Source: Agromyces bauzanensis
GTDB taxonomy: Bacteria > Actinomycetota > Actinomycetes > Actinomycetales > Microbacteriaceae
DNA: 64,000 bases
Assembly: GCF_014645655.1 (NCBI RefSeq)
Contig: NZ_BMMD01000012.1
Location: 1 to 64,000, forward strand
Direction: 5' to 3'
Shown here: positions 3,478-39,155 of the stretch, piece by piece
How the letters are laid out: each line of letters begins with the position of its first letter
Position numbering within the stretch: the first letter of the stretch is position 1
The notes under the pieces: model-generated
What the model saw: the letters and a program-made list of their open reading frames with translations, nothing else
Databases searched by the model: none
Told to the model about the DNA's origin: nothing
Translations under genes and position numbers: made by a program

Positions 3478-3507
3478 TTGTGAACCGGTTCAGTTCTGGG
3501 ATAGATT
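3478..3507 (+). promoter_or_regulatory. Promoter of the GH2-kinase-aldolase-GH3 operon
   Basis: TTGTGA (3478-3483), an 18-bp spacer and TAGATT (3502-3507) form a plausible sigma70 promoter. The LacI-type palindrome at 3481-3492 overlaps the -35 box. The start point (about 3514) coincides with the GTG start of the GH2 gene, implying a leaderless mRNA. In the 244 bp upstream (3234-3477) I see no supportable gene. Confidence 0.55.
3481..3492. promoter_or_regulatory. LacI-type operator TGAACCGGTTCA (site 1)
   Basis: Perfect 12-bp palindrome TGAACCGGTTCA with a central CpG, as expected of LacI-family operators. It overlaps the -35 region of the operon starting at 3514, so a bound repressor would block RNA polymerase. 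Identical copies precede or overlap four other carbohydrate transcription units in this window. Confidence 0.85.
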
Positions 3508-11078: not shown

Positions 11079-12467
11079 TCAGGTGCGTCCCGGTATCGTG
11101 ACCCACTCCGTGCCGAAGCCGGGGACCGTCACCTCGCGACCGTCGGGCATGACCACCCGCTGTGCATCGGGGCTCGGGTTCGCGATGGCCACCCGCAGGC
11201 CGTCCTCCGCATCGACGGCCAGCACGCCGAGCGGGGCGGGAGCGGAGGCCCTGTGCAGCGGGCGACCGGCGAGCGCCGCCAGGCGGGAGATGGCGGTAGC
11301 GGCGGGAGAGTCCGGTGGAATGTCGCGCGAGAAGTAGCGCAGCGACGCCGGCGCCTCGGGTGCGGCGGATGCGGCGCTTGCCACGACCCAGGTCGCGGCA
11401 AGCGGTGTCGTCCAACGGCGCGGCGCGGGTCCACCGGGCGGCTCGGGGACGTAGCGGTGCGCGTCGTCGAGCCAGTCGCCGGCCACATCGAGGAAGGAGA
11501 CCGGCCCGAGGTGCACAGGCGCGCCGCCCGCCAGCGCACGGGCATGGCGGACGAGGTCGCCGTGCATCGCGGCCGTCTCCAGCACGGAGTCGTCGTCCGC
11601 GGCGTGCACGGCGCCGTTGACGCCCAGCTCCACGGCGGGTGGCCTCTGTGCGGGCGGATGCTCGTTGAGCTCGATGAATCCACCTGCTGGGCGCAGCGAT
11701 GCCGGACTGAGGCATCCGTCGTACACGCCGACAGGGGGCATCCGGCCCACCGGCTCGCCGATCTGGACGCGCTGGCGCCCGATCGGGTGCGGGCGCCCAG
11801 TCGTGTGCTGGCGGCCGGGGGTCCACCGCAGCTGCACGCGATGCTCGAAGCGCTGCTGAGCGCGTGCAAGGAGCGGCACGGGTCCCGTCGTGGTGGTGTA
11901 CGCCTTGTAGGAGGCGTCGGTCCAGTTACGCTGGTCCTCGAGCTCGAGCTCGTCTCCCGTGATCTCGACGTCGAGGCGTCCCCCAGTGGGAGGCTTCGCT
12001 CGCAGCCGCGTGAACGGACTGTGGAACGCGGGTGCGTCCGGATGGCTGCGAGCCCGCGCGACGATCTCGCCGGGAAAGGTGAAGCTGTTGCGCACGCCGC
12101 CGCGTTCGGTCGTCGCCTCCGCGTGCCGGAACGTGCGGTCGTCGAAGAGCAGGCATGGTCCGATCCTGTTGTAGGGGAAGTCGGCGAGGGCGATGCCGAG
12201 CGTCTCCACGGTGAGCACGTTCCCGGCCGCCGTCGCGATCAGGGAGGCGGCCAGCGGGAACGCGGCGTCGGCCGGCTCCGCATCGATGCGGAGCGTGAAG
12301 CCGTCGCGCGTCCGCGTGCGCTCTCGGTGCTGCACGATCATCCGAGCCGTGCGCCAGTGCGGGTCGCGGGCCGCGAAATAGAAACGGCCGAGGACTGGTT
12401 CGCCATCGAAGCGGATGCCGCGGAGCTCGAGTCCGTCCTCGCGGTCCTCCCGTGTGGTGTATCCCAT
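11079..12467 (-). CDS. D-apionate-lactonase-like (ApnL family) protein, short form
   Basis: 462 residues. The N-terminal beta-sandwich (LRGIRFDGEPVLGRFYFAAR; TLGIALADFPYNRIG) and the striking LELEDQRNWTDASYKAY resemble what I recall of D-apionate lactonases. The C-terminal part (FIELNEHPP, AVHAADDDSVLETAA, GGAPVHLGPVSF) also resembles that family. Between about residues 225 and 245 the usual middle of the C-terminal barrel seems missing: family members I recall exceed 600 residues. It may hydrolyse an aldonolactone in the sugar oxidation route. Start ATG 12467 lies 2 bp after the permease stop, within the importer operon. Homology is from memory; activity is inferred. Confidence 0.5.
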   Translation of the reverse strand: MGYTTREDREDGLELRGIRFDGEPVLGRFYFAARDPHWRTARMIVQHRERTRTRDGFTLRIDAEPADAAFPLAASLIATAAGNVLTVETLGIALADFPYNRIGPCLLFDDRTFRHAEATTERGGVRNSFTFPGEIVARARSHPDAPAFHSPFTRLRAKPPTGGRLDVEITGDELELEDQRNWTDASYKAYTTTTGPVPLLARAQQRFEHRVQLRWTPGRQHTTGRPHPIGRQRVQIGEPVGRMPPVGVYDGCLSPASLRPAGGFIELNEHPPAQRPPAVELGVNGAVHAADDDSVLETAAMHGDLVRHARALAGGAPVHLGPVSFLDVAGDWLDDAHRYVPEPPGGPAPRRWTTPLAATWVVASAASAAPEAPASLRYFSRDIPPDSPAATAISRLAALAGRPLHRASAPAPLGVLAVDAEDGLRVAIANPSPDAQRVVMPDGREVTVPGFGTEWVTIPGRT

Positions 12468-12469
12468 CG

Positions 12470-13339
12470 TCAGCCCTTCACGGCTCCCTGGACGAGGGCG
12501 TCCTCGAGTCGCCGGTTGAGGATGAGGTACATCACGAACACCGGGATGATCGAGATGACCGCTCCCGCGGCGACCTGCGCGTAGTTCGTGTTGCCGGTCG
12601 CGCTCACGAGTGTCGGCAACGCGACCTGGATCGTGCGGTTGATCGGTTGCGGTCCGACGATGACGAGGGTGTAGAGGTACTCGTTCCAGTACGAGATGAA
12701 CTGCAGAATGCCGACGGTCGCGATGCCGGGGACGACGAGCGGGATGTAGACGCTGCGGAAGATCCTGAACCTGCTCGCCCCGTCGATCGTCGCGCTCTCC
12801 TCGAGCTCGCTCGGGACGGTGCGCATGAACTGAGTGAGCAGGATCACGGCGAGGGGCTGCGCCGATGCCGACAGATAGAGAATGATGAACTCGCGCGTAC
12901 GGTACATTCCCAGCCCGATCGCGAGCAGGAGTGTCGGCACGAGCGCAGCGAACCCGGGGATCAGGAATCCGAATGCATAGACGCGCTCGACGATGCTGCC
13001 GATCCTGCCCCTCGCGCGGGCGAGGCCGTACGCCGCGGGCAGTGCTACGGCGAGCGTGAGGATGAGGGCGCTGGCGGTGATGTACAGCGAGTTCCAGAGC
13101 GCGGTGCCTGCTTCGAGGTACGTCCAGACGAAGGCGAAGTTCTCCCAGCCGGCGGAGAACGACGGAGTCAACGGCGTGCGGAAGACTTCGAACCGCTCCT
13201 TGAATGCTGAGATGACGATCCAATACAGCGGCAGCAGAAGCGTCACCGCGTACAGTCCGATCGCGATGTAGGCGACCACGAAGCCCCTGCTCGGGCGAGT
13301 CCGGCGTCGGCGCGTGACGGCTTCTGCTTGCGAGCTCAT
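12470..13339 (-). CDS. CUT1 sugar ABC transporter permease (MalG/LacG type)
   Basis: 289 residues with six predicted TM segments and the EAA loop near the C-terminal third (ELEESATIDGASRFRIFRSVYIPLVVP), which contacts the ATPase. FISYWNEYLYTLVIV is typical of MalG-type permeases. Start ATG 13339 (MSSQAEAV) is preceded by AGAGGT six bases upstream; a longer frame exists but would run into the upstream permease gene. It pairs with the MalF-type permease, whose stop is 1 bp away. The operon contains no ATPase, so an MsiK-type shared ATPase encoded elsewhere is likely used. Confidence 0.88.
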   Translation of the reverse strand: MSSQAEAVTRRRRTRPSRGFVVAYIAIGLYAVTLLLPLYWIVISAFKERFEVFRTPLTPSFSAGWENFAFVWTYLEAGTALWNSLYITASALILTLAVALPAAYGLARARGRIGSIVERVYAFGFLIPGFAALVPTLLLAIGLGMYRTREFIILYLSASAQPLAVILLTQFMRTVPSELEESATIDGASRFRIFRSVYIPLVVPGIATVGILQFISYWNEYLYTLVIVGPQPINRTIQVALPTLVSATGNTNYAQVAAGAVISIIPVFVMYLILNRRLEDALVQGAVKG

Positions 13340-15741: not shown

Positions 15742-15753
15742 TGAACCGGTTCA
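15742..15753. promoter_or_regulatory. LacI-type operator TGAACCGGTTCA (site 2)
   Basis: Perfect palindrome, extended to CTGAACCGGTTCAG at 15741-15754. It lies immediately downstream of the -10 box of the importer promoter, where a repressor would block initiation. A second, one-mismatch site lies 120 bp further upstream, so looping between the two is possible. Confidence 0.87.
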
Positions 15754-15815: not shown

Positions 15816-15872
15816 CATCTCGTCTTCGGTCAGCGGCGCGCGCTTCGCGCCGATGCGAATCTGAACCGGTTC
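15816..15872 (-). repeat. 57-bp dispersed repeat, copy A (operator plus leader)
   Basis: Read on the minus strand, this stretch matches 34760-34816 on the plus strand at 54 of 57 positions. It runs from GAACCGGTTCAG through ATTCGCATCGGCGCGAAGC to a terminal GATG. In the other copy that final ATG is the start codon of the GH140-like gene. Here it opens only a 17-codon frame (MPARLIHPRSL...) that ends inside the importer promoter. It looks like a duplicated regulatory cassette. Confidence 0.75.
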
Positions 15873-15873
15873 G
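15862..15873. promoter_or_regulatory. LacI-type operator, one mismatch (site 3)
   Basis: TGAACCGGTTCG, 11 of 12 matches to the regulon palindrome, centred 120 bp upstream of site 2. It belongs to the 57-bp repeat. It may be an auxiliary operator for repression by looping, or a leftover of the duplication. Confidence 0.6.
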
Positions 15874-29283: not shown

Positions 29284-29301
29284 CATAATTGAACCGGTTC
29301 A
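29284..29301 (+). promoter_or_regulatory. GH36 promoter -10 box and LacI-type operator (site 4)
   Basis: CATAAT (29284-29289) is a good -10 box; no clear -35 is seen upstream. The perfect palindrome TGAACCGGTTCA (29290-29301) begins right after it and covers the start point, the same layout as at the importer promoter. Confidence 0.75.
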
Positions 29302-31542: not shown

Positions 31543-33207
31543 TCAGCCCCCCGGGGCCGGCGAGAGCTCCGCAGCGGTGACCGCGCCGAGCTGGTAGACC
31601 CTGACGTGGTCGACGTCGAACGCTGCGGGGAGCTTGTCCACTTCCTCGCCGTTGTGCCCGCCCCACCGTCCGCCGAACGCGTGGTTCAGCAGCAGCGTGC
31701 CGGGATTGGCGAGCGGTCCGTCCACGCCGCTGCCGGGCAGGCCCCAGCGATACGTCGCGCACGCGAACTTCTCGCCGTCGGCAAAGAAGCAGACGCGGTC
31801 GGGATACCAGGCGGCACCGACCTCGACCCACTCTCCTGCGAGGCCGCGATCGGCGTGCCAGTCGTGATACGTCGTGTCGAACCCGACCTCGTCGCCCGCC
31901 GAGCCGTCGAGCACGTCGCCGAAGTCGAACCATGTGATGGGTCCGCACTCGTTCCCGCACAGGTAGTCGACGAGTCCGACATGGTACTGATTGTCGAACT
32001 GGCCACCGGTCGGGAAGGTCCCGTCGTTGTTGTAGGGACCCTCGTAGAAGTCGATCTCCGGAGGCCAGCCGATGGGGATGGTACCGTCACCGAAGCCGTT
32101 GATCGTCCAGAACGCGGGGAACGTGCCGAGCACCTTGGGCGCACGGACCCGGGCCGTGAGGTAGAGCGGCGCGTCCCACGTCGGGAGGAACTCCTCCTTG
32201 GATCGGATCATCGCCGACTCGTACTGCAGCACGGGCGCATCCTGCCGCGTGTGGGTGGCCCACAGCGAGAGGTAGCCGTCCTGCACGGTGTGGAGCTCCT
32301 GCCCCTCGCTGTTGACGTCGCGGTAGACCTCCTCCTCCTGTGGCAGCTCCCATTCCGGTGCGTTCGGCGCCGGGCGGATGTCGAAGCCGCCGAGCGTGTC
32401 GTGAAAGCCATACGCGGGCGGGTACGCCCGGGAGAAGTCGTAGGTGCCGTCGCCGTTGTCCAGGACGCCGGTGTTCTCCGAGATCTCCTCGATCCTGGTG
32501 TCGTACCAGCCGGCGATCGCGGTCTCGCCTGCGGCCGCGGCTTTCGCGGACTCATCCTTGTACTGGTTGAGGATGGTCGTCGTCCGGCCCGTCTCCCGCT
32601 CGGTGAGCGGCGCGATGTGGTAGCAGCCGGGATCCGAACTCGTCAGCTCCTCCTGCGAGGGCTGGGATGTCGGCTCCCAGAACTGGTACCTCGTACACCA
32701 GTCGTCGCGATCGAGCTCCGACCCGCTGAACTCGTCGGAGAAGACGAGCTCTGCGCCGGAGGGGTGTGCGTCCGCGCCGGTGTTGTCGACCTTCACGAGA
32801 ACCGTCTCGATCACCTGCGGGAGCGTCGTCGAGGAGCTCCAGCCGATCGCGACGAGCGCGCGGTAACCATCCTCGAGCTGCAGGGTGTCGACAGTCGCGG
32901 TGGCGGATGCGCCGTCCGGCGCGACATCCGCGACGGCCAGCTCCTTCCCATGTGAGTAGAGCACGACCTTGCCGAGGTTGGCGCCGGAGAACGCGAACTC
33001 GGTCGTGTCCGACACCGTGGATCGCGGTGCGGGCGACTCGAGCTCGAGGGTGGCCTTCGACGAGTGGGAGCTGCCGAAGGTGAGGGATGCTGCTGAGGCT
33101 GCCGGTGTCGCGAACAGGACGGCTGCGATCCCCGCGCTCAACGCGAGAACAGCCGTACCGATTCGGCGACTGCGTCGGCGCCAGAGGTGAACCGGTTCAG
33201 TTTTCAT
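31543..33207 (-). CDS. Secreted glycoside hydrolase family 16 enzyme
   Basis: 554 residues. The N-terminus (RRRSRRIGTAVLALSAGIAAVLF...ASAAS) is a signal peptide with a double-arginine start. An Ig-like domain (about 45-150) follows, then a GH16 jelly roll. WPPEIDFYEGP matches the GH16 ExDxxE catalytic motif, with nucleophile about E384 and acid/base about E389. It is an endo-acting enzyme outside the cell; specificity (laminarin, xyloglucan, galactan or other) is not readable and the many inserts make it unusual. AGGAAG lies seven bases before ATG 33207. LacI site 5 falls inside codons 3-7. Probably provides oligosaccharides for the importer. Confidence 0.82.
   Translation of the reverse strand: MKTEPVHLWRRRSRRIGTAVLALSAGIAAVLFATPAASAASLTFGSSHSSKATLELESPAPRSTVSDTTEFAFSGANLGKVVLYSHGKELAVADVAPDGASATATVDTLQLEDGYRALVAIGWSSSTTLPQVIETVLVKVDNTGADAHPSGAELVFSDEFSGSELDRDDWCTRYQFWEPTSQPSQEELTSSDPGCYHIAPLTERETGRTTTILNQYKDESAKAAAAGETAIAGWYDTRIEEISENTGVLDNGDGTYDFSRAYPPAYGFHDTLGGFDIRPAPNAPEWELPQEEEVYRDVNSEGQELHTVQDGYLSLWATHTRQDAPVLQYESAMIRSKEEFLPTWDAPLYLTARVRAPKVLGTFPAFWTINGFGDGTIPIGWPPEIDFYEGPYNNDGTFPTGGQFDNQYHVGLVDYLCGNECGPITWFDFGDVLDGSAGDEVGFDTTYHDWHADRGLAGEWVEVGAAWYPDRVCFFADGEKFACATYRWGLPGSGVDGPLANPGTLLLNHAFGGRWGGHNGEEVDKLPAAFDVDHVRVYQLGAVTAAELSPAPGG
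33188..33199. promoter_or_regulatory. LacI-type operator inside the GH16 start region (site 5)
   Basis: Perfect TGAACCGGTTCA covering codons 3-7 (T-E-P-V-H) of the GH16 gene. The palindrome constrains the encoded residues. Repression would work as a roadblock just after initiation, since no upstream copy is visible. Confidence 0.8.
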
Positions 33208-33323
33208 GCGACCTTCCTAGCAGATCCTCCCGCCGGATGTCACGGATCTGCCGAACACGTATGAAACTCGGCATGGCAGACTCGGCCCCGGGTTCGGCGG
33301 CAGGCGCTGACGACTCGCGCCGG

Positions 33324-34721
33324 TCAGACCACGACGCGCTCGAGCTCGGCTACGAGCAGCGCGCCGAACGCGACCGTGTGCTCGATGCGACCGCCGCCCG
33401 CGGCGAGCGTGATCACCCAGCGGAACGCCGTCCTCGTGAAGAGCACGTGCACGTCCACTGCGCCGTCCGCACCGATCGCGTATGAGGCGGCGACCGGCTC
33501 CTCGACCCCGCCGACCGCGCTTCGGCCGGGCGACCAGCGGCCGTGGGCGGCGCGTATGCGATGGACCTCTCCCGCTCGGACGAAGGTGATCGCGACGCCG
33601 CCCTCGCCGGGCGCCAGCGTCATGGACTCGATTCGCGCGGCGTTCGGCATGGCCGTGTAATGACGCCTCGGCACATGGCCGGCGGCGCCCCGCGGGAGCG
33701 GCACGACGAGATCCGGGCGGCCGAACGGTTCGCCCGCGAGTGGCTCGTCCGGAGCGGCATCCAAGCGCCCGAGCAGCGTCGTCCAGATCGCCGTGATCTC
33801 GAGCTCCATGTGAGGCTCGCCCGCCGTCAGAGCCACCACCATGTCCTCTTGGGGCCAGACCAGGATGTACTGGCCCCACGCGCCGTCGGCGCGGTACGCG
33901 CCGTGTCGCGTCCGCCAGAACTGGTAGCCGTAGCCCATCGCCCAGTCTTCGCCGAGGTCGTCGTTGCGGCAGTCGACGTGCCGCGAGGTGGCGGCGTCGA
34001 CCCACGCCGACGGCACGAGCTGCCGACCCTGCCACTCGCCGCGCTGGAGGAGCAGCTGGCCGATGACCGCCATGTCCAGGGGCCGCAGCGACAGCCCCCA
34101 GCCGCCGACGTCGACACCACGTGGGCACTGCTCCCACGTCGGCCGTTCGATGCCGAGGGGCCGGAAGAGCCGCGACTCGAGGTAGTCGGTCAACCGCTGT
34201 CGCGCATGTCGCTGGACGATCGCCGATAGCAGGTAGGTCGCGCCCGAGTTGTACACGAAGCGCGTTCCCGGCTCGAGATCGATCGGCAGCGCGAGGATGG
34301 CGCGCACCCAGTTCGTCTCGCTCCGTCCGAGCGTCCGCCCGAACGGCTCGACCGTGTCGGCCGCGTGCCCGCTCGTCATCGTCAGCAGGTGTTCCACGCG
34401 CAGGTCGCGCAGTCGCGGCTGCGGGTGCTCGGGGACGTCTTCCGGGAGCAGGTCAACGATCCGATCGTCGAGCGCGAACAGTCCCTCGTCGATCGCCAGG
34501 CCCACGGCGAGCGACGTCACGCTCTTGCTCACCGAGAACAGCGTGTGCGGCTCGTCGACGCGGTACGGATGCCACGCCGCCTCCGCGACGACGGCGCCGG
34601 CGCGGACCACGACGACACTGTGGACGCCCCCGATGCGGTCGAGCTCCGACACGAAGTCGCCGATCGCAGCTTCGGGGATCCCGGCCGCGGCGGGCGTGGA
34701 TCGGCTCGGGCGGATCGTCAT
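33324..34721 (-). CDS. Serine hydrolase of the beta-lactamase / class C family
   Basis: 465 residues. HTLFSVSKSVTSLAVG contains the catalytic S63-x-x-K66, FVYNSGATYLL the Tyr157 motif, and TMTSGHAADT is typical of family members. The C-terminal 130 residues form a separate beta-rich domain. No signal peptide, so it is cytoplasmic. In carbohydrate clusters such proteins often act as acetyl-sugar or other esterases, which is a guess here. Start ATG 34721 (MTIRPSRS) has GAGGAG upstream. It is divergent from the GH140-like operon and shares LacI site 6 with it. Confidence 0.82.
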   Translation of the reverse strand: MTIRPSRSTPAAAGIPEAAIGDFVSELDRIGGVHSVVVVRAGAVVAEAAWHPYRVDEPHTLFSVSKSVTSLAVGLAIDEGLFALDDRIVDLLPEDVPEHPQPRLRDLRVEHLLTMTSGHAADTVEPFGRTLGRSETNWVRAILALPIDLEPGTRFVYNSGATYLLSAIVQRHARQRLTDYLESRLFRPLGIERPTWEQCPRGVDVGGWGLSLRPLDMAVIGQLLLQRGEWQGRQLVPSAWVDAATSRHVDCRNDDLGEDWAMGYGYQFWRTRHGAYRADGAWGQYILVWPQEDMVVALTAGEPHMELEITAIWTTLLGRLDAAPDEPLAGEPFGRPDLVVPLPRGAAGHVPRRHYTAMPNAARIESMTLAPGEGGVAITFVRAGEVHRIRAAHGRWSPGRSAVGGVEEPVAASYAIGADGAVDVHVLFTRTAFRWVITLAAGGGRIEHTVAFGALLVAELERVVV

Positions 34722-34758: not shown

Positions 34759-34770
34759 TGAACCGGTTCA
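34759..34770. promoter_or_regulatory. LacI-type operator TGAACCGGTTCA (site 6)
   Basis: Perfect palindrome, extended CTGAACCGGTTCAG at 34758-34771, in the 92-bp gap between the divergent serine hydrolase and GH140-like genes. It can control both, including the LacI gene at the end of the plus-strand operon, giving autoregulation. It is the left end of the 57-bp repeat. Confidence 0.87.
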
Positions 34771-34816
34771 GATTCGCATCGGCGCGAAGCACGCGCCGCT
34801 GACCGAGGACGGGATG
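34760..34816 (+). repeat. 57-bp dispersed repeat, copy B (operator plus leader)
   Basis: It matches 15816-15872 of the opposite strand at 54 of 57 positions. It includes most of the LacI operator and the whole leader up to and including the ATG of the GH140-like gene. The second half (CGCGCCGCTGACCGA) has an inverted-repeat flavour with the preceding CGGCGCGAAGC. Confidence 0.75.
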
Positions 34817-36097
34817 AACCCCTTGTCAATCAACATCACAGCGTCCGGCACCGGAATCGAGCGCGACGGAGCGTTCCTACCGCTGCTGATCGACACGAAC
34901 TGGGCGGCCTTCTCCGACGTGCCCGAGGGCGAGTGGCGCCTGTACCTCCGACTGCGCCGTCGTCAGGGCTTCACCGCGGTGATCGTCACGGTGCTGCCGA
35001 TCGTGCACGACCGCACCGAGGGACGCGAGAGCCGCTACCCCTTCGCCCGGCGCCCGGACGGCACGTTCGACTGGGCGACGCCGGAAGCGGACTATGTCGG
35101 GCATGTCCGGCGGTACGTCGAGATCGCACGCCGCGAGTTCGGTCTCGAGGTCTTCGTCACCGTGCTGTGGAACAACTACCTGCCCGGGACGTGGGGCTCG
35201 CGACTCGAGCCGTACGTCGTGATGCCGGCCGACGTCCGGCGCGCGCACGTCGAGCGAGTCGTCGACGCGCTCGCCGATCTCGAGCCGGTCTTCGTCGTCA
35301 GCGGCGACGACGGCTTCGACTCGGCGGAGGCCAATGACGCCTATCGCGAGACGATCGCGACGATGCGCGAACGCGCTCCGGATGCGCTTGTGACCACCCA
35401 CGGAGCGCCCGCCGCCCAGATCCCGGACGACATCCTCGATCGGCTCGACCTGTACCTCTTCCAGTCCGGGCACAACGTCGCCCAGCAGGCGCTCGCCTGG
35501 GAGACAGCTGAGCGTCTCGCGGCGCGGACGCCGCGCAAGCCCGTCGTCAACGTCGAGCCGCCCTACGAAAGACACGGAATGGTCGGCGGTTCCGGTCGCT
35601 GGAGCAGTTCGGACGTGCGGCGTGCCTCGTGGGCGGGCGTGCTCGCCGGGGCCGGGGCAGGCGTGGGCTATGCCGCGCATGGCGTCTGGATGTGGTCGAC
35701 CGCAGAGGGCAGGTTCCTCTTCGCTCACGGGTCCCAGGAACCGGCGACGTGGGTCGAGGCGATGACGTTTCCCGGCGTGCACGACATCGCGCTGCTCGGA
35801 TACCTCATCCGCACGCACCGGCTCGACCGTACGACGCCGGGGTCGCACCCGCTCGCCGAGATCGATCCGCGCTTCCGTCTCGCGGTCACCGCCGACGACT
35901 CGCTCCTCGCCTTGTACTTCCCGTATGATCGGCCCGTGGAGCTTGCCCGCGACTTCGCGGACTACGTCGTTTCGGCTTGGGACCTCGCCGCCCGGGCGCC
36001 GTTCGTCCCCGAACTCATTCGGGAGGGCAAGGCGACTCACCTCCGCCCGGCAGGCGTCGCGGAGGACGCGCTGATCGTCGCCGAGCGGCGCCGATGA
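34814..36097 (+). CDS. GH140/DUF4038-like (apiosidase-like) TIM-barrel protein
   Basis: 427 residues, no signal peptide. FLPLLIDTNWAAFSDVPEGEWRLYLRLRRRQGFTAVIV is the characteristic start of DUF4038/apiosidase-like proteins (pattern LxDTxWxxF...YLxxRxxxGFT). The barrel continues with LFQSGHN, VVNVEPPYE (a candidate catalytic Glu) and YAAHGVWMW. GH140 members cleave apiose in rhamnogalacturonan II, and many DUF4038 proteins are uncharacterised. The ATG ends the 57-bp repeat, with GAGGACGGG before it. First gene of an operon with SDR, dehydratase and LacI genes, joined by ATGA overlap. Confidence 0.72.
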   Translation: MNPLSINITASGTGIERDGAFLPLLIDTNWAAFSDVPEGEWRLYLRLRRRQGFTAVIVTVLPIVHDRTEGRESRYPFARRPDGTFDWATPEADYVGHVRRYVEIARREFGLEVFVTVLWNNYLPGTWGSRLEPYVVMPADVRRAHVERVVDALADLEPVFVVSGDDGFDSAEANDAYRETIATMRERAPDALVTTHGAPAAQIPDDILDRLDLYLFQSGHNVAQQALAWETAERLAARTPRKPVVNVEPPYERHGMVGGSGRWSSSDVRRASWAGVLAGAGAGVGYAAHGVWMWSTAEGRFLFAHGSQEPATWVEAMTFPGVHDIALLGYLIRTHRLDRTTPGSHPLAEIDPRFRLAVTADDSLLALYFPYDRPVELARDFADYVVSAWDLAARAPFVPELIREGKATHLRPAGVAEDALIVAERRR

Positions 36098-36951
36098 GCT
36101 TGCCGAGGGTGCTCGTGACCGGCGGTGGCGGACTGGTCGGCTCTGCCGTCGTGCGGCGCCTCCTCAACGTCGGCCATCCCGTCACGATGATCTCCCGATC
36201 GAGCCAGACCGCTCCTGAGGGCGTGCGCGTCGTACGCGGTGACATCCGCGATCCGGACGTCGTGACGGCAGCTCTTGCGGACGTGGACGCCGTGGCCCAC
36301 CTCGCAGGGATTCCGAATGCCTGGGACGCGGCACCCGAGCAGGTGTTCGCCAACAACGCGGAGGCCACCTTCACGCTGCTGTGGCGGGCAGCGGAGGCCG
36401 GCGTGCGCCGTTTCGCCGTCGCAGGAAGCGTCAACGCGACGGGACTCATCATGAACCCGCGTCGGCACCTCCCCGACCGCTTTCCCGTCGACGAGCGGAC
36501 GATCGGCGAGATCGCCGACCCGTACTCCCTGAGCAAGCGAGTCGACGAGCTCACCGCGGAGGCTGTCGCGGCCCGGTTCGCGGCGACGATCGTCGTGCTG
36601 CGGCTTCCGCTCGTCGTGCCTCCGGCGGACGCGGAAGGCCTCCTCGCCTACCAGGCCGAGCGGTCGGCGCAGTGCGCCGGCGACGGCTGGGGATGGCTCG
36701 ACTCGCGCGATGCCGCCGAGGCGTTCCGTCTCGCGCTCACCCGGCCCCTCAGCGGATGCCACACGCTGCAGGTCGCCGCGAAGACGGTCTTCAGCACCAC
36801 GCCGACCGAGGAGCTGATCCGCACGTTCGCGCCGGGCGTGCAGAGAGCCACCGCCTATCCCGGTCGCACCGCTCCGATCGATACGACGCTCGCGGAGCGC
36901 ATACTCGGCTTCGTCCCTCGCTACGACGAGCCGGGTCAGGAGGATTCGTGA
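36094..36951 (+). CDS. Extended SDR, NAD-dependent sugar dehydrogenase/epimerase-like
   Basis: 285 residues. VLVTGGGGLVGSAVVRRL is the nucleotide-binding motif, VVRGDIRDPDVV and DAVAHLAGIPNAWD follow, and DPYSLSKRVDE has the catalytic YxxxK (the Ser is in AVAGSVNAT). Extended SDRs of this form include nucleotide-sugar epimerases and uronate/aldose 1-dehydrogenases. Placed between a glycosidase and an aldonate dehydratase, oxidation of the free sugar or uronate to a lactone is the most economical role; this is inference. It overlaps both neighbours (ATGA, GTGA). Confidence 0.72.
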   Translation: MSLPRVLVTGGGGLVGSAVVRRLLNVGHPVTMISRSSQTAPEGVRVVRGDIRDPDVVTAALADVDAVAHLAGIPNAWDAAPEQVFANNAEATFTLLWRAAEAGVRRFAVAGSVNATGLIMNPRRHLPDRFPVDERTIGEIADPYSLSKRVDELTAEAVAARFAATIVVLRLPLVVPPADAEGLLAYQAERSAQCAGDGWGWLDSRDAAEAFRLALTRPLSGCHTLQVAAKTVFSTTPTEELIRTFAPGVQRATAYPGRTAPIDTTLAERILGFVPRYDEPGQEDS

Positions 36952-38096
36952 AGATCAGCTCCGTCGAGACGTTCATCCTGGGAGAGCGGCAGCTCCTCGT
37001 GCGAATCGGCACCGATGCCGGGCTCGCCGGATGGGGCGATGCCACCCTCGAGCATCGCGTCGGCACGGTCGCCGCGGCGATCCGGGAGATGTCCGGACTG
37101 CTGCTCGGGAAGGATCCCCTTCCGGTCACCGATCACTGGAACCGCCTGATGCGCAGCGGGTTCTATCGCGGGGGCGCAGTGCTTTCCTCGGCGGTCGCCG
37201 GGCTCGATCAAGCGCTGTGGGACCTGCGCGGGCGGCACTACGAGGCGCCGATCCACGTGCTCCTCGGCGGCCCCGTCCGCGAACGCGTCCGGCTCTACAC
37301 CCACACGTGGGGTAGCCCGGGGCAGACCGGCAACCCCGAGCGCGCGAGGGAACTCGCCGAGCGCGGCTACACCCTCGTCAAGGCGTCGATCGCAGGGCCG
37401 GTCGACTTCCTCGCCCGCCCGGAGCACGTCGCTCGTTTCGTTGCTGACCTCGAGGCCCTGCGCGAGGCGGTCGGTCCGGGCGCCGACTTCGCGATCGATC
37501 TGCATGGCCGTGTGTCGGTCCCGCATGCGCGCAGGCTCGCCGATGCCGTCGCGCACACCGCGCCCGCGTTCCTGGAAGAGCCCCTTCGGCCGGAGCACTC
37601 GCGACAGCTCGAGCGTGTCACGGCAGCGACCACAGTGCCGATCGCCGTCGGCGAGCGCCTCTTCTCGCGCGAGGAGTTCCTGCCCGTGCTGCAGGCCGGC
37701 ATCGCGATCGCCCAGCCCGACCTCTCGCATGCGGGCGGGATCACGGAGTGCTTCCGCATCGCGACGCTCGCCGAGAGCTTCGACGTGCAGATCGCACCGC
37801 ACTGCCCGCTCGGACCGGTGGCGCTGGCCGCCTGCGTCCAGCTCGACCTCGCCGTGCCGAACTTCTACGCGCAGGAGCACATCATCGACCTCGGGTCCGC
37901 GGCATCCGACGATCTGAGCATCCTCACCGATCCCGGAGTCCTGGTCGCCCGGGACGGTCACATCGAGCGCCCGACGGGCCCCGGCCTGGGCATCGACATC
38001 GACGAGGAGCTCGTGCGGCAGCGCGCCGAAGAGGTCGGCATCCCACACGGCAACCCCGCGTGGGACTACCCTGACGGGAGCTTCGCAGAGTGGTGA
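36948..38096 (+). CDS. Enolase-superfamily sugar-acid dehydratase, D-galactonate dehydratase-like
   Basis: 382 residues of the mandelate racemase/muconate lactonizing group. FAIDLHGRVS gives D184 and H186, FLEEPL gives E210, VGERLFS gives E236, IAPHCPLGP gives H285, and YAQEH gives E310. These six positions agree almost exactly with the metal ligands and catalytic residues I recall for E. coli DgoD (183, 185, 209, 235, 285, 310). It should dehydrate D-galactonate or a similar aldonate to a 2-keto-3-deoxy acid, the substrate of the kinase and aldolase at 5976-7498. Start GTG 36948 overlaps the SDR stop, with AGGAGG upstream. Confidence 0.85.
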   Translation: MKISSVETFILGERQLLVRIGTDAGLAGWGDATLEHRVGTVAAAIREMSGLLLGKDPLPVTDHWNRLMRSGFYRGGAVLSSAVAGLDQALWDLRGRHYEAPIHVLLGGPVRERVRLYTHTWGSPGQTGNPERARELAERGYTLVKASIAGPVDFLARPEHVARFVADLEALREAVGPGADFAIDLHGRVSVPHARRLADAVAHTAPAFLEEPLRPEHSRQLERVTAATTVPIAVGERLFSREEFLPVLQAGIAIAQPDLSHAGGITECFRIATLAESFDVQIAPHCPLGPVALAACVQLDLAVPNFYAQEHIIDLGSAASDDLSILTDPGVLVARDGHIERPTGPGLGIDIDEELVRQRAEEVGIPHGNPAWDYPDGSFAEW

Positions 38097-38117: not shown

Positions 38118-39155
38118 ATGAGCAGGGAAGCGGGCCGGCGTCCGGTGCGGATCAGCGACGTGGCCGCGGCGGCGGGCGTCAGCAAGGCGCTCGTCTCCTA
38201 CGCGCTCAACGACCGCCCGGGCGTGAGTGAGTCGACTCGTGCGCACATCGCCGCGGTGGCCCGGAGCATGGGGTGGACGCCGAGCGTTCGCGCGCGTTCG
38301 CTCTCCTCCAACCGCGCGTACGCCATCGGCCTGGTCTTCGAGATCAGCGTCGAAGCGCTCGCGTCAGACGAGTGGGTCATGAGCTTCATGGCGGGGATGC
38401 AGAGCGTGCTCGCCGCGGCGCAGTACGCGCTGGTGACCGAGGTCGTCGCCGACTCGGCCACGGAGATCGCTGCCTACTCCCAGCTCGCACGCGACGGCAG
38501 GATCGACGGCATCGTCCTGATGGACCCGCAGCGCGACGATCGCCGCATGGCGATGCTCGACGACTTGGGCCTCCCGTACGTCAGCCTGGGGCCGACCGCG
38601 AGGCCGACGGACATGCCAGTACTGGTCTACGACGAGGCCCCGGCGATCACCGCGGTGGTCGATCACCTCGTCGGACTCGGGCATCGGCGCATCGCACAGG
38701 TGTGCGGGCCGCAGACGACTCCGTCCGCGTCGCTGCGGCGACGACTGTACCAGCGAGCGCTTGAGGCGCACGGCGTCGACGGCGGATGGTGGATCGAGAG
38801 CGACTACACCGCGCCGGGCGGACGCAACGCGACCACCATGCTGCTCGCCGATCCCGATCCGCCCACAGCCGTCATCTACTCGAACGACATCATGGCCATC
38901 GGCGGAATGAGCGGTGCGATCAACGCCGGGCTCCGCGTTCCCGACGACCTGTCGGTCGTGGGCTGGGACGGGATCACCGTGGCCCAATATCTCCATCCGG
39001 CACTATCGACCGTGAGCCAGCACCCGTACGAGGACGGACGCACAGCGGCGAGCGTGCTGCTCGAGGCCATTGAGGGCCGGAGGTTCCAGCAGACCGTGTC
39101 CACGGCCGACCCGACGTTCGTGCCGAGGGAGTCGAGTGCGCGCGCCCCGAGGTGA
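38118..39155 (+). CDS. LacI-family repressor of the sugar-polymer regulon
   Basis: 345 residues. The N-terminal helix-turn-helix is VRISDVAAAAGVSKALVSYALNDRPGVSESTR, followed by the hinge RARSLSSNRA whose Leu inserts into a central CpG. The periplasmic-binding-like domain has YAIGLVFE, DGIVLMDPQ, VIYSNDIMAIGG and LSVVGWDGI. It lies 21 bp after the dehydratase gene and ends the operon, so it probably represses its own operon through site 6. The only repeated LacI-like operator in the window, TGAACCGGTTCA, is therefore assigned to it. The inducer is unknown; an intermediate or oligosaccharide of the pathway is likely. Confidence 0.88.
   Translation: MSREAGRRPVRISDVAAAAGVSKALVSYALNDRPGVSESTRAHIAAVARSMGWTPSVRARSLSSNRAYAIGLVFEISVEALASDEWVMSFMAGMQSVLAAAQYALVTEVVADSATEIAAYSQLARDGRIDGIVLMDPQRDDRRMAMLDDLGLPYVSLGPTARPTDMPVLVYDEAPAITAVVDHLVGLGHRRIAQVCGPQTTPSASLRRRLYQRALEAHGVDGGWWIESDYTAPGGRNATTMLLADPDPPTAVIYSNDIMAIGGMSGAINAGLRVPDDLSVVGWDGITVAQYLHPALSTVSQHPYEDGRTAASVLLEAIEGRRFQQTVSTADPTFVPRESSARAPR

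Follow-up and report, generated by a model that had tools for sequence, protein, structure and literature searches.

Introduction

CcpA and CebR both belong to the LacI family of regulators. In Bacillus subtilis, the palindromic cre sites of CcpA lie in promoters or in open reading frames, and CcpA sites located downstream of the transcript start block elongation, the cases given in the relevant part of PMC3463425 being the xyl, ara and gnt operons, sigL and acsA. GlyR3 of Clostridium thermocellum binds within the coding region of manB, as stated in the part of PMC5483248 that concerns this site. For CebR of Streptomyces, whose motif is TGGGAGCGCTCCCA, the positions listed in the pertinent section of PMC5332605 include +1507 for txtB and -13 for bglC. 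A binding site in an open reading frame, with a demonstrated roadblock of elongation, is also described for C.Kpn2I in the corresponding part of PMC6237814.

In the present study we analyzed a 64,000-nucleotide stretch of Agromyces bauzanensis DNA (the window, below), in which a palindrome occupies the first codons of a gene for a GH16-like glycoside hydrolase. The features treated here are collected in Table 1.

Results

Direct reading of the sequence showed that TGAACCGGTTCA is a perfect 12-bp palindrome. Within the GH16-like gene it covers the last base of codon 3, all of codons 4-6 and the first two bases of codon 7 (+9 to +20, counted from the A of the ATG), and the site lies inside the coding region. 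The remainder of codons 1-3 (33200-33207) is outside the palindrome. The 5' end of the gene reads ATG AAA ACT GAA CCG GTT CAC (M K T E P V H). A first-pass annotation of this DNA had placed a repressor palindrome in codons 3-7, and this placement was correct, because ACT GAA CCG GTT CAC spell it. The same annotation had held that the operator fixes the start codon, and this was not borne out; it is the reading frame and the ribosome-binding site that set the start. That is, the ATG is well placed because it is the first possible start past the preceding stop and has AGGAAGG shortly upstream. By eye, the next in-frame candidate is a TTG at codon 23, within the hydrophobic stretch.

Table 1. Positions in the window of the palindrome, its copies and the neighboring genes.
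Feature	Position	Strand	Basis or remark
Operator copy, 18 nt 5' of GH2 gene start (TTG 3511, or GTG 3514)	3481..3492	.	exact 12-mer
Operator copy, 92 nt 5' of ABC-transporter solute-binding-protein gene (ATG 15649, minus)	15742..15753	.	exact 12-mer
Near copy, one mismatch, 120 bp from the 15742 operator	15862..15873	.	
Operator copy, 56 nt 5' of GH36-like gene ATG 29358	29290..29301	.	exact 12-mer
GH16-like glycoside hydrolase, 554 aa, signal peptide by eye, EIDFYE	31543..33207	minus	open reading frame with ATG at 33207
Putative operator TGAACCGGTTCA within codons 3-7	33188..33199	.	palindrome, repeats in window and genome
Shine-Dalgarno-like AGGAAGG, 4 nt 5' of GH16-like ATG	33212..33218	minus	sequence
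Beta-lactamase-fold gene, same strand as and upstream of GH16-like gene, 116-bp gap	33324..34721	minus	
Operator copy between divergent beta-lactamase-fold and apiosidase-like genes	34759..34770	.	exact 12-mer
Apiosidase-like, NAD-epimerase and galactonate-dehydratase-like genes, overlapping ends (starts chosen by us)	34814..38096	plus	21 nt before LacI gene
LacI-family repressor	38118..39155	plus	PF00356 and Peripla_BP_3; last gene of the run headed by the 34759 operator; starts 21 nt after the galactonate-dehydratase-like gene

Then the copies of the 12-mer were counted in the window, in the genome and in the family. The window has five exact copies (3481, 15742, 29290, 33188 and 34759). When up to two mismatches were allowed, six matches were found against 1.15 expected, and none of 100 shuffles reached six. 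Among the 49 perfect 12-bp palindromes in the window, only TGAACCGGTTCA occurs more than twice. In the whole genome (3,722,120 bases, 93 contigs) there are again five exact copies, all of them in this window and within 31 kb; elsewhere in the 3.72-Mb genome the exact 12-mer gave no match, and a reversed control pattern gave none in the genome. Allowing one mismatch in the genome added 10 further places, namely 15862 and nine on other contigs, against two for the control pattern.

The exact 12-mer was present in 59 of 299 family genomes. By hand count from the table of matches, 68 exact copies fall in the 298 other family genomes (about 0.23 per genome), and some 30 copies of the reversed control pattern fall in the 299 genomes. 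Since five copies within 31 kb stand against about 0.23 per genome in the relatives, the copies form a cluster beyond chance. These results indicate a palindromic motif that is repeated at several genes of one cluster.

The four other exact copies in the window occupy positions typical of operators. The 34759 copy is located 37 nt from the ATG of the beta-lactamase-fold gene (34721, minus) and 43 nt from that of the apiosidase-like gene (34814, plus). Genes were assigned to families with Pfam and NCBIfam. In NCBIfam, galactonate dehydratase was matched above the cut-off (within 36381-38096), and three further matches were below it: KDG-kinase-like (5976), beta-L-arabinopyranosidase-like (29358), and polygalacturonase- or rhamnogalacturonidase-like (9734). 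From the gene set, the putative substrate would be a plant cell-wall glycan containing residues of the galactose, arabinose or apiose type. A 714-aa frame at 11079-13223, which adjoins a GH28 gene and has no Pfam match, weakly resembles D-apionate lactonase in NCBIfam (E 2.8e-26, below the cut-off). Together with the apiosidase-like gene, this frame gives a hint of apiose-containing glycans as the substrate.

Two further features of the spacing of the copies were observed. A 57-bp stretch is shared at 95% identity by 15816-15872 (minus) and 34760-34816 (plus). It consists of the operator and the leader up to the apiosidase-like ATG, and its second copy is inverted and lies 5' of the solute-binding-protein gene; a search of the rest of the genome gave no other match to it longer than about 30 bases. 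The repeat has the appearance of a leader duplication through which the transporter acquired a second operator. Two operators (15742-15753 and 15862-15873) stand 120 bp apart 5' of the ABC transporter genes. In one related genome (G016), two exact copies lie 143 bp apart, and the spaced pairs in the window and in G016 hint at paired sites.

A LacI-family regulator gene is linked to the operators. PF00356 has seven matches in the genome, and the one on this contig is the gene at 38118-39155 (38118 LacI). This gene ends the run headed by the 34759 operator, and autoregulation is therefore implied. The recognition helix of 38118 LacI is VSKALVSYALN.

Relatives of 38118 LacI at E <= 1e-60 were found in 72 of 299 family genomes, its own included. 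We examined the best 29 loci of the 71 other genomes with a LacI match. All 29 had the palindrome, with 0-2 mismatches, no more than 350 bp 5' of the helix-turn-helix codons, where by our arithmetic about 0.006 such matches per locus would be expected at the window-wide rate; the 29 relatives include several of one genus and are not independent. That is, the motif is common to the genes of related regulators among the best 29 loci of 71 genomes. The variants were TAAACCGGTTCA (14 loci), TAAACCGGTTAA (7), TAAACCGGTTTA (7) and TGAACCGGTTCA (1). Because every examined relative has a near copy upstream, 38118 LacI is very probably the regulator of the palindrome sites. The first-pass view of the palindrome as a repressor operator is thus supported as very probable by sequence comparison, the repressor being of the LacI family.

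When the motif is written out over this clade (L064-L092), CTAAACCGGTTHAG, or CTGAACCGGTTCAG in L065, stands 5' of the protein's own gene at 29 of 29 loci. At 12 of the 29 there is also a second, diverged copy, CTAAACCGGTATAG, 18-36 bp further upstream. L065 is the sole examined relative that has VSY in its helix, as in the window, the others having VSF, and it carries exactly CTGAACCGGTTCAG.

These comparisons tie the LacI clade to CTRAACCGGTTHAG, though not exclusively. In some genomes the exact 12-mer is found beside LacI proteins with other helices, for example VSF in L033-L035. A link between VSY and TGAACC as the sole cause of the base change was rejected: L065 fits it, but L033, L034 and L035 have VSF beside exact TGAACCGGTTCA, and the helix residue alone therefore cannot explain the change.

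The surroundings of the exact 12-mer were also inspected in 29 family loci, which represent 29 of the 58 other genomes in which it occurs. A LacI-like gene was within 1.5 kb in nine of the 29, a count that has no background rate and was obtained with a query set to which some of the same genomes had contributed LacI proteins. In these nine loci the site falls beyond the LacI match and stands 5' of it or of a transporter gene; an intragenic placement is therefore unusual. According to a crude frame-based caller, 19 of 29 exact copies in related genomes are inside a called frame, some of them owing to starts set too far upstream (e.g., L030, L033, L035) and others deep in genes, probably by chance. 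L041, from another genome of the family, has the exact 12-mer at 865-876, where it starts with the ATG of an ABC-permease-like gene (ATGAACCGGTTCA...); this is a second case of a copy at the extreme 5' end of a coding region, and a LacI-like gene was not found in this locus. G016 holds four exact copies in all. An orthologous regulon shared with G016 was considered and rejected, as 18 gene models of the window, compared by tblastn with 12 fetched stretches, gave only ABC, GH36 and LacI similarity in those of G016.

Next, we describe the codons at the site. In the codon usage of the window (30 genes, 12,490 codons), ACT accounts for 4.1% of Thr, GAA for 17.7% of Glu, CCG for 55.7% of Pro, GTT for 3.2% of Val and CAC for 73.1% of His. 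The 12-mer is preserved by 2 of the 256 spellings of TEPVH, with a joint probability of 1.3e-4 under window usage. In a comparison of 28 genes, the starts of some of which are unverified, codons 3-6 of the GH16-like gene were the rarest at that position, and within the gene itself the four codons of the site rank 5th among 549 four-codon stretches. The first 20 codons of the gene include further rare ones. Since other 5' codons are also rare, codon rarity supports selection for the site and does not prove it. The rare codons fit an operator that constrains codon choice, and the earlier statement that one stretch serves as both coding and control sequence is supported.

The GH16 label of the first-pass annotation stands in a broad sense. 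The PDB matches of the protein were mostly GH16 beta-1,3-glucanases (best, 2vy0 at E 1.2e-10; 4crq, at 3.2e-9, is among the others). The catalytic motif of GH16 is E-x-D-x-x-E, and the protein has it as EIDFYE, which aligns with EIDIME of 2vy0. The label did not extend to a Pfam family, since the Pfam search of the protein gave none at E <= 0.001, and for this reason we call it a divergent GH16 member. Weak NCBIfam matches included kappa-carrageenase at 1.7e-4, far under its cut-off. The signal peptide and the tolerance of its n-region are readings by eye.

The protein is rare among relatives. None of the 59 other genomes of the genus gave a match at E <= 1e-15. At E <= 0.001, 12 other genomes among 398 family genomes gave matches, the best being 6.3e-8 and most covering 80-100 residues. 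A scan with short peptide patterns, which may miss very near genomes, gave 16 pattern matches and confirmed none of them. A search of 396 genomes at the level of the order (E <= 1e-12) gave the closest homologues found, in three other genomes, all of one genus of another family, at 43-56% over parts. This rarity may reflect horizontal acquisition. TEPVH was not seen in the open frames of these three distant homologues, the N-terminal frames of which differ, and the exact operator was absent from the fetched stretches of their loci; homologues at this distance are too remote to show gain or loss of the site. The missing TEPVH fits a tolerant n-region without proving it.

Finally, the geometry of transcription was considered. 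A strict consensus promoter scan gave no match in any of the five operator regions, including the one 5' of the GH16-like gene. By eye, TTGACA-17-TTCAAT can be read at a distance of five bases upstream of the 15742 operator, and CATAAT immediately upstream of the 29290 operator; neither is relied on here. Should AGGAAGG serve as the ribosome-binding site, the transcript must begin at 33218 or further upstream, and the center of the operator is then at about +25 or further. At this distance a roadblock-type block of early elongation or of promoter escape is somewhat likelier than a block of polymerase binding. Because the scan recognized no promoter, repression at initiation or at promoter escape fits as well, as does a site that assists another operator, such as the one before the upstream gene.

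Discussion

Taken together, we think it likely that the palindrome is a working operator of 38118 LacI for the local glycan genes and that it represses the GH16-like gene at the gene start. On this reading of the DNA, 38118 LacI would control a local set consisting of the GH2, GH36-like, GH16-like and apiosidase-like genes, the ABC transporter and the sugar-acid genes, and the set would serve the use of a plant-type polysaccharide or glycoside. In the absence of inducer, a repressor dimer would sit on codons 3-7 and transcription would be blocked at the very start of the GH16-like gene; an inducing sugar would release the repressor from these codons. The sequence itself shows the site and where it lies, its occurrence at several genes, the rare codons and the tie of the LacI clade to the motif; binding, repression, the dimer, the inducer and the substrate are all points that we infer. 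The least certain element of the explanation is the step that is blocked at the GH16-like gene. Roadblock repression, which the first-pass annotation had taken to follow from the position of the site, is plausible there by analogy with described systems.

The main lac operator has its center near +11, and the repressor bound to it contacts the initiating polymerase. A real operator in codons 3-7 might act in a similar way, blocking initiation or promoter clearance, if the transcript started 10-20 nt before the ATG. The 116-bp gap has room for a promoter near the ATG, and three of the other sites, at 18 to 56 nt from a start codon, occupy the usual promoter-proximal spot. We regard this as quite possible, though short of probable, because a transcribed AGGAAGG puts the operator center at about +25 or further and because the consensus scan gave no promoter match upstream of the gene. 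A role as a helper is rather unlikely in our estimation. In that case the intragenic site would loop with the 34759 operator, 1.57 kb away, or would stop read-through from the beta-lactamase-fold gene, instead of controlling a promoter belonging to the GH16-like gene. The beta-lactamase-fold and GH16-like genes do lie on one strand, 116 bp apart, with the 34759 operator preceding the first of the pair, and a terminator scan of 33150-33400 gave no match. Looping, however, requires a tetramer or a partner. LacI of E. coli has a C-terminal leucine-heptad tail, and the 345-aa repressor of this locus, inspected by eye, is without one.

Two other explanations concern the identity of the site itself. 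The sites might be bound by a different one of the seven LacI-family proteins of the genome, as would be allowed by the related genomes, in which LacI proteins that differ in their recognition helices are found close to the exact 12-mer. That 38118 LacI is the only PF00356 match on the contig and ends an operator-headed run, and that its 29 examined relatives all have a near copy at their own gene, make this very unlikely. Still less credible is an unbound occurrence in coding sequence by chance. Exact copies do turn up at about 0.23 per related genome, many of them in genes far from the start as judged with the crude caller, and the L041 copy sits at an ABC-permease-like ATG with no LacI gene found nearby; against this, the genome has five copies in 31 kb and none elsewhere, and the present one is no more than 20 nt from the start codon of a cluster gene and is written in rare codons. 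An operator of 38118 LacI at the start of the GH16-like gene remains our preferred reading. Tentatively, and with considerable doubt, we extend it as follows: TGAACCGGTTCA in the signal-peptide n-region, which matches its promoter-proximal counterparts exactly, may be maintained by selection both on codon choice and on the unusual acidic, proline-containing TEPVH, and the secreted enzyme might be repressed by an early-elongation roadblock at this point that also halts read-through from the upstream gene.

The GH16-like site offers a compact, testable case of one DNA stretch under coding and regulatory selection. In addition, CTRAACCGGTTHAG is linked here to a LacI clade present in 72 of 299 family genomes, which would allow regulons to be recognized in many relatives.

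Comparing this locus with the known systems, CcpA also has palindromic sites, some of which are within open reading frames according to the relevant part of PMC3463425. CcpA is a global regulator acting with HPr-Ser-P, whereas we describe a probable local repressor with one perfect motif in five copies. GlyR3 resembles the present case in that a LacI-family protein of a glycoside hydrolase cluster has a site in the coding region of a hydrolase; in the part of PMC5483248 that treats these sites, binding at manB is weaker than at celC, whereas the intragenic 12 bp here are identical to the upstream copies. CebR is likewise an actinobacterial sugar repressor with palindromic sites at hydrolase and ABC-transporter genes, but its motif and targets are different, and its secreted-hydrolase sites, among those listed in the pertinent section of PMC5332605, have negative (upstream) positions. 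C.Kpn2I shares with the GH16-like gene a site inside an open reading frame, but it is the controller protein of a restriction-modification system and autoregulates its own gene, as described in the corresponding part of PMC6237814. Since operators in coding regions and the roadblock are already in print, the principle is known, and the GH16-like site is a fresh, clean example of such a placement.
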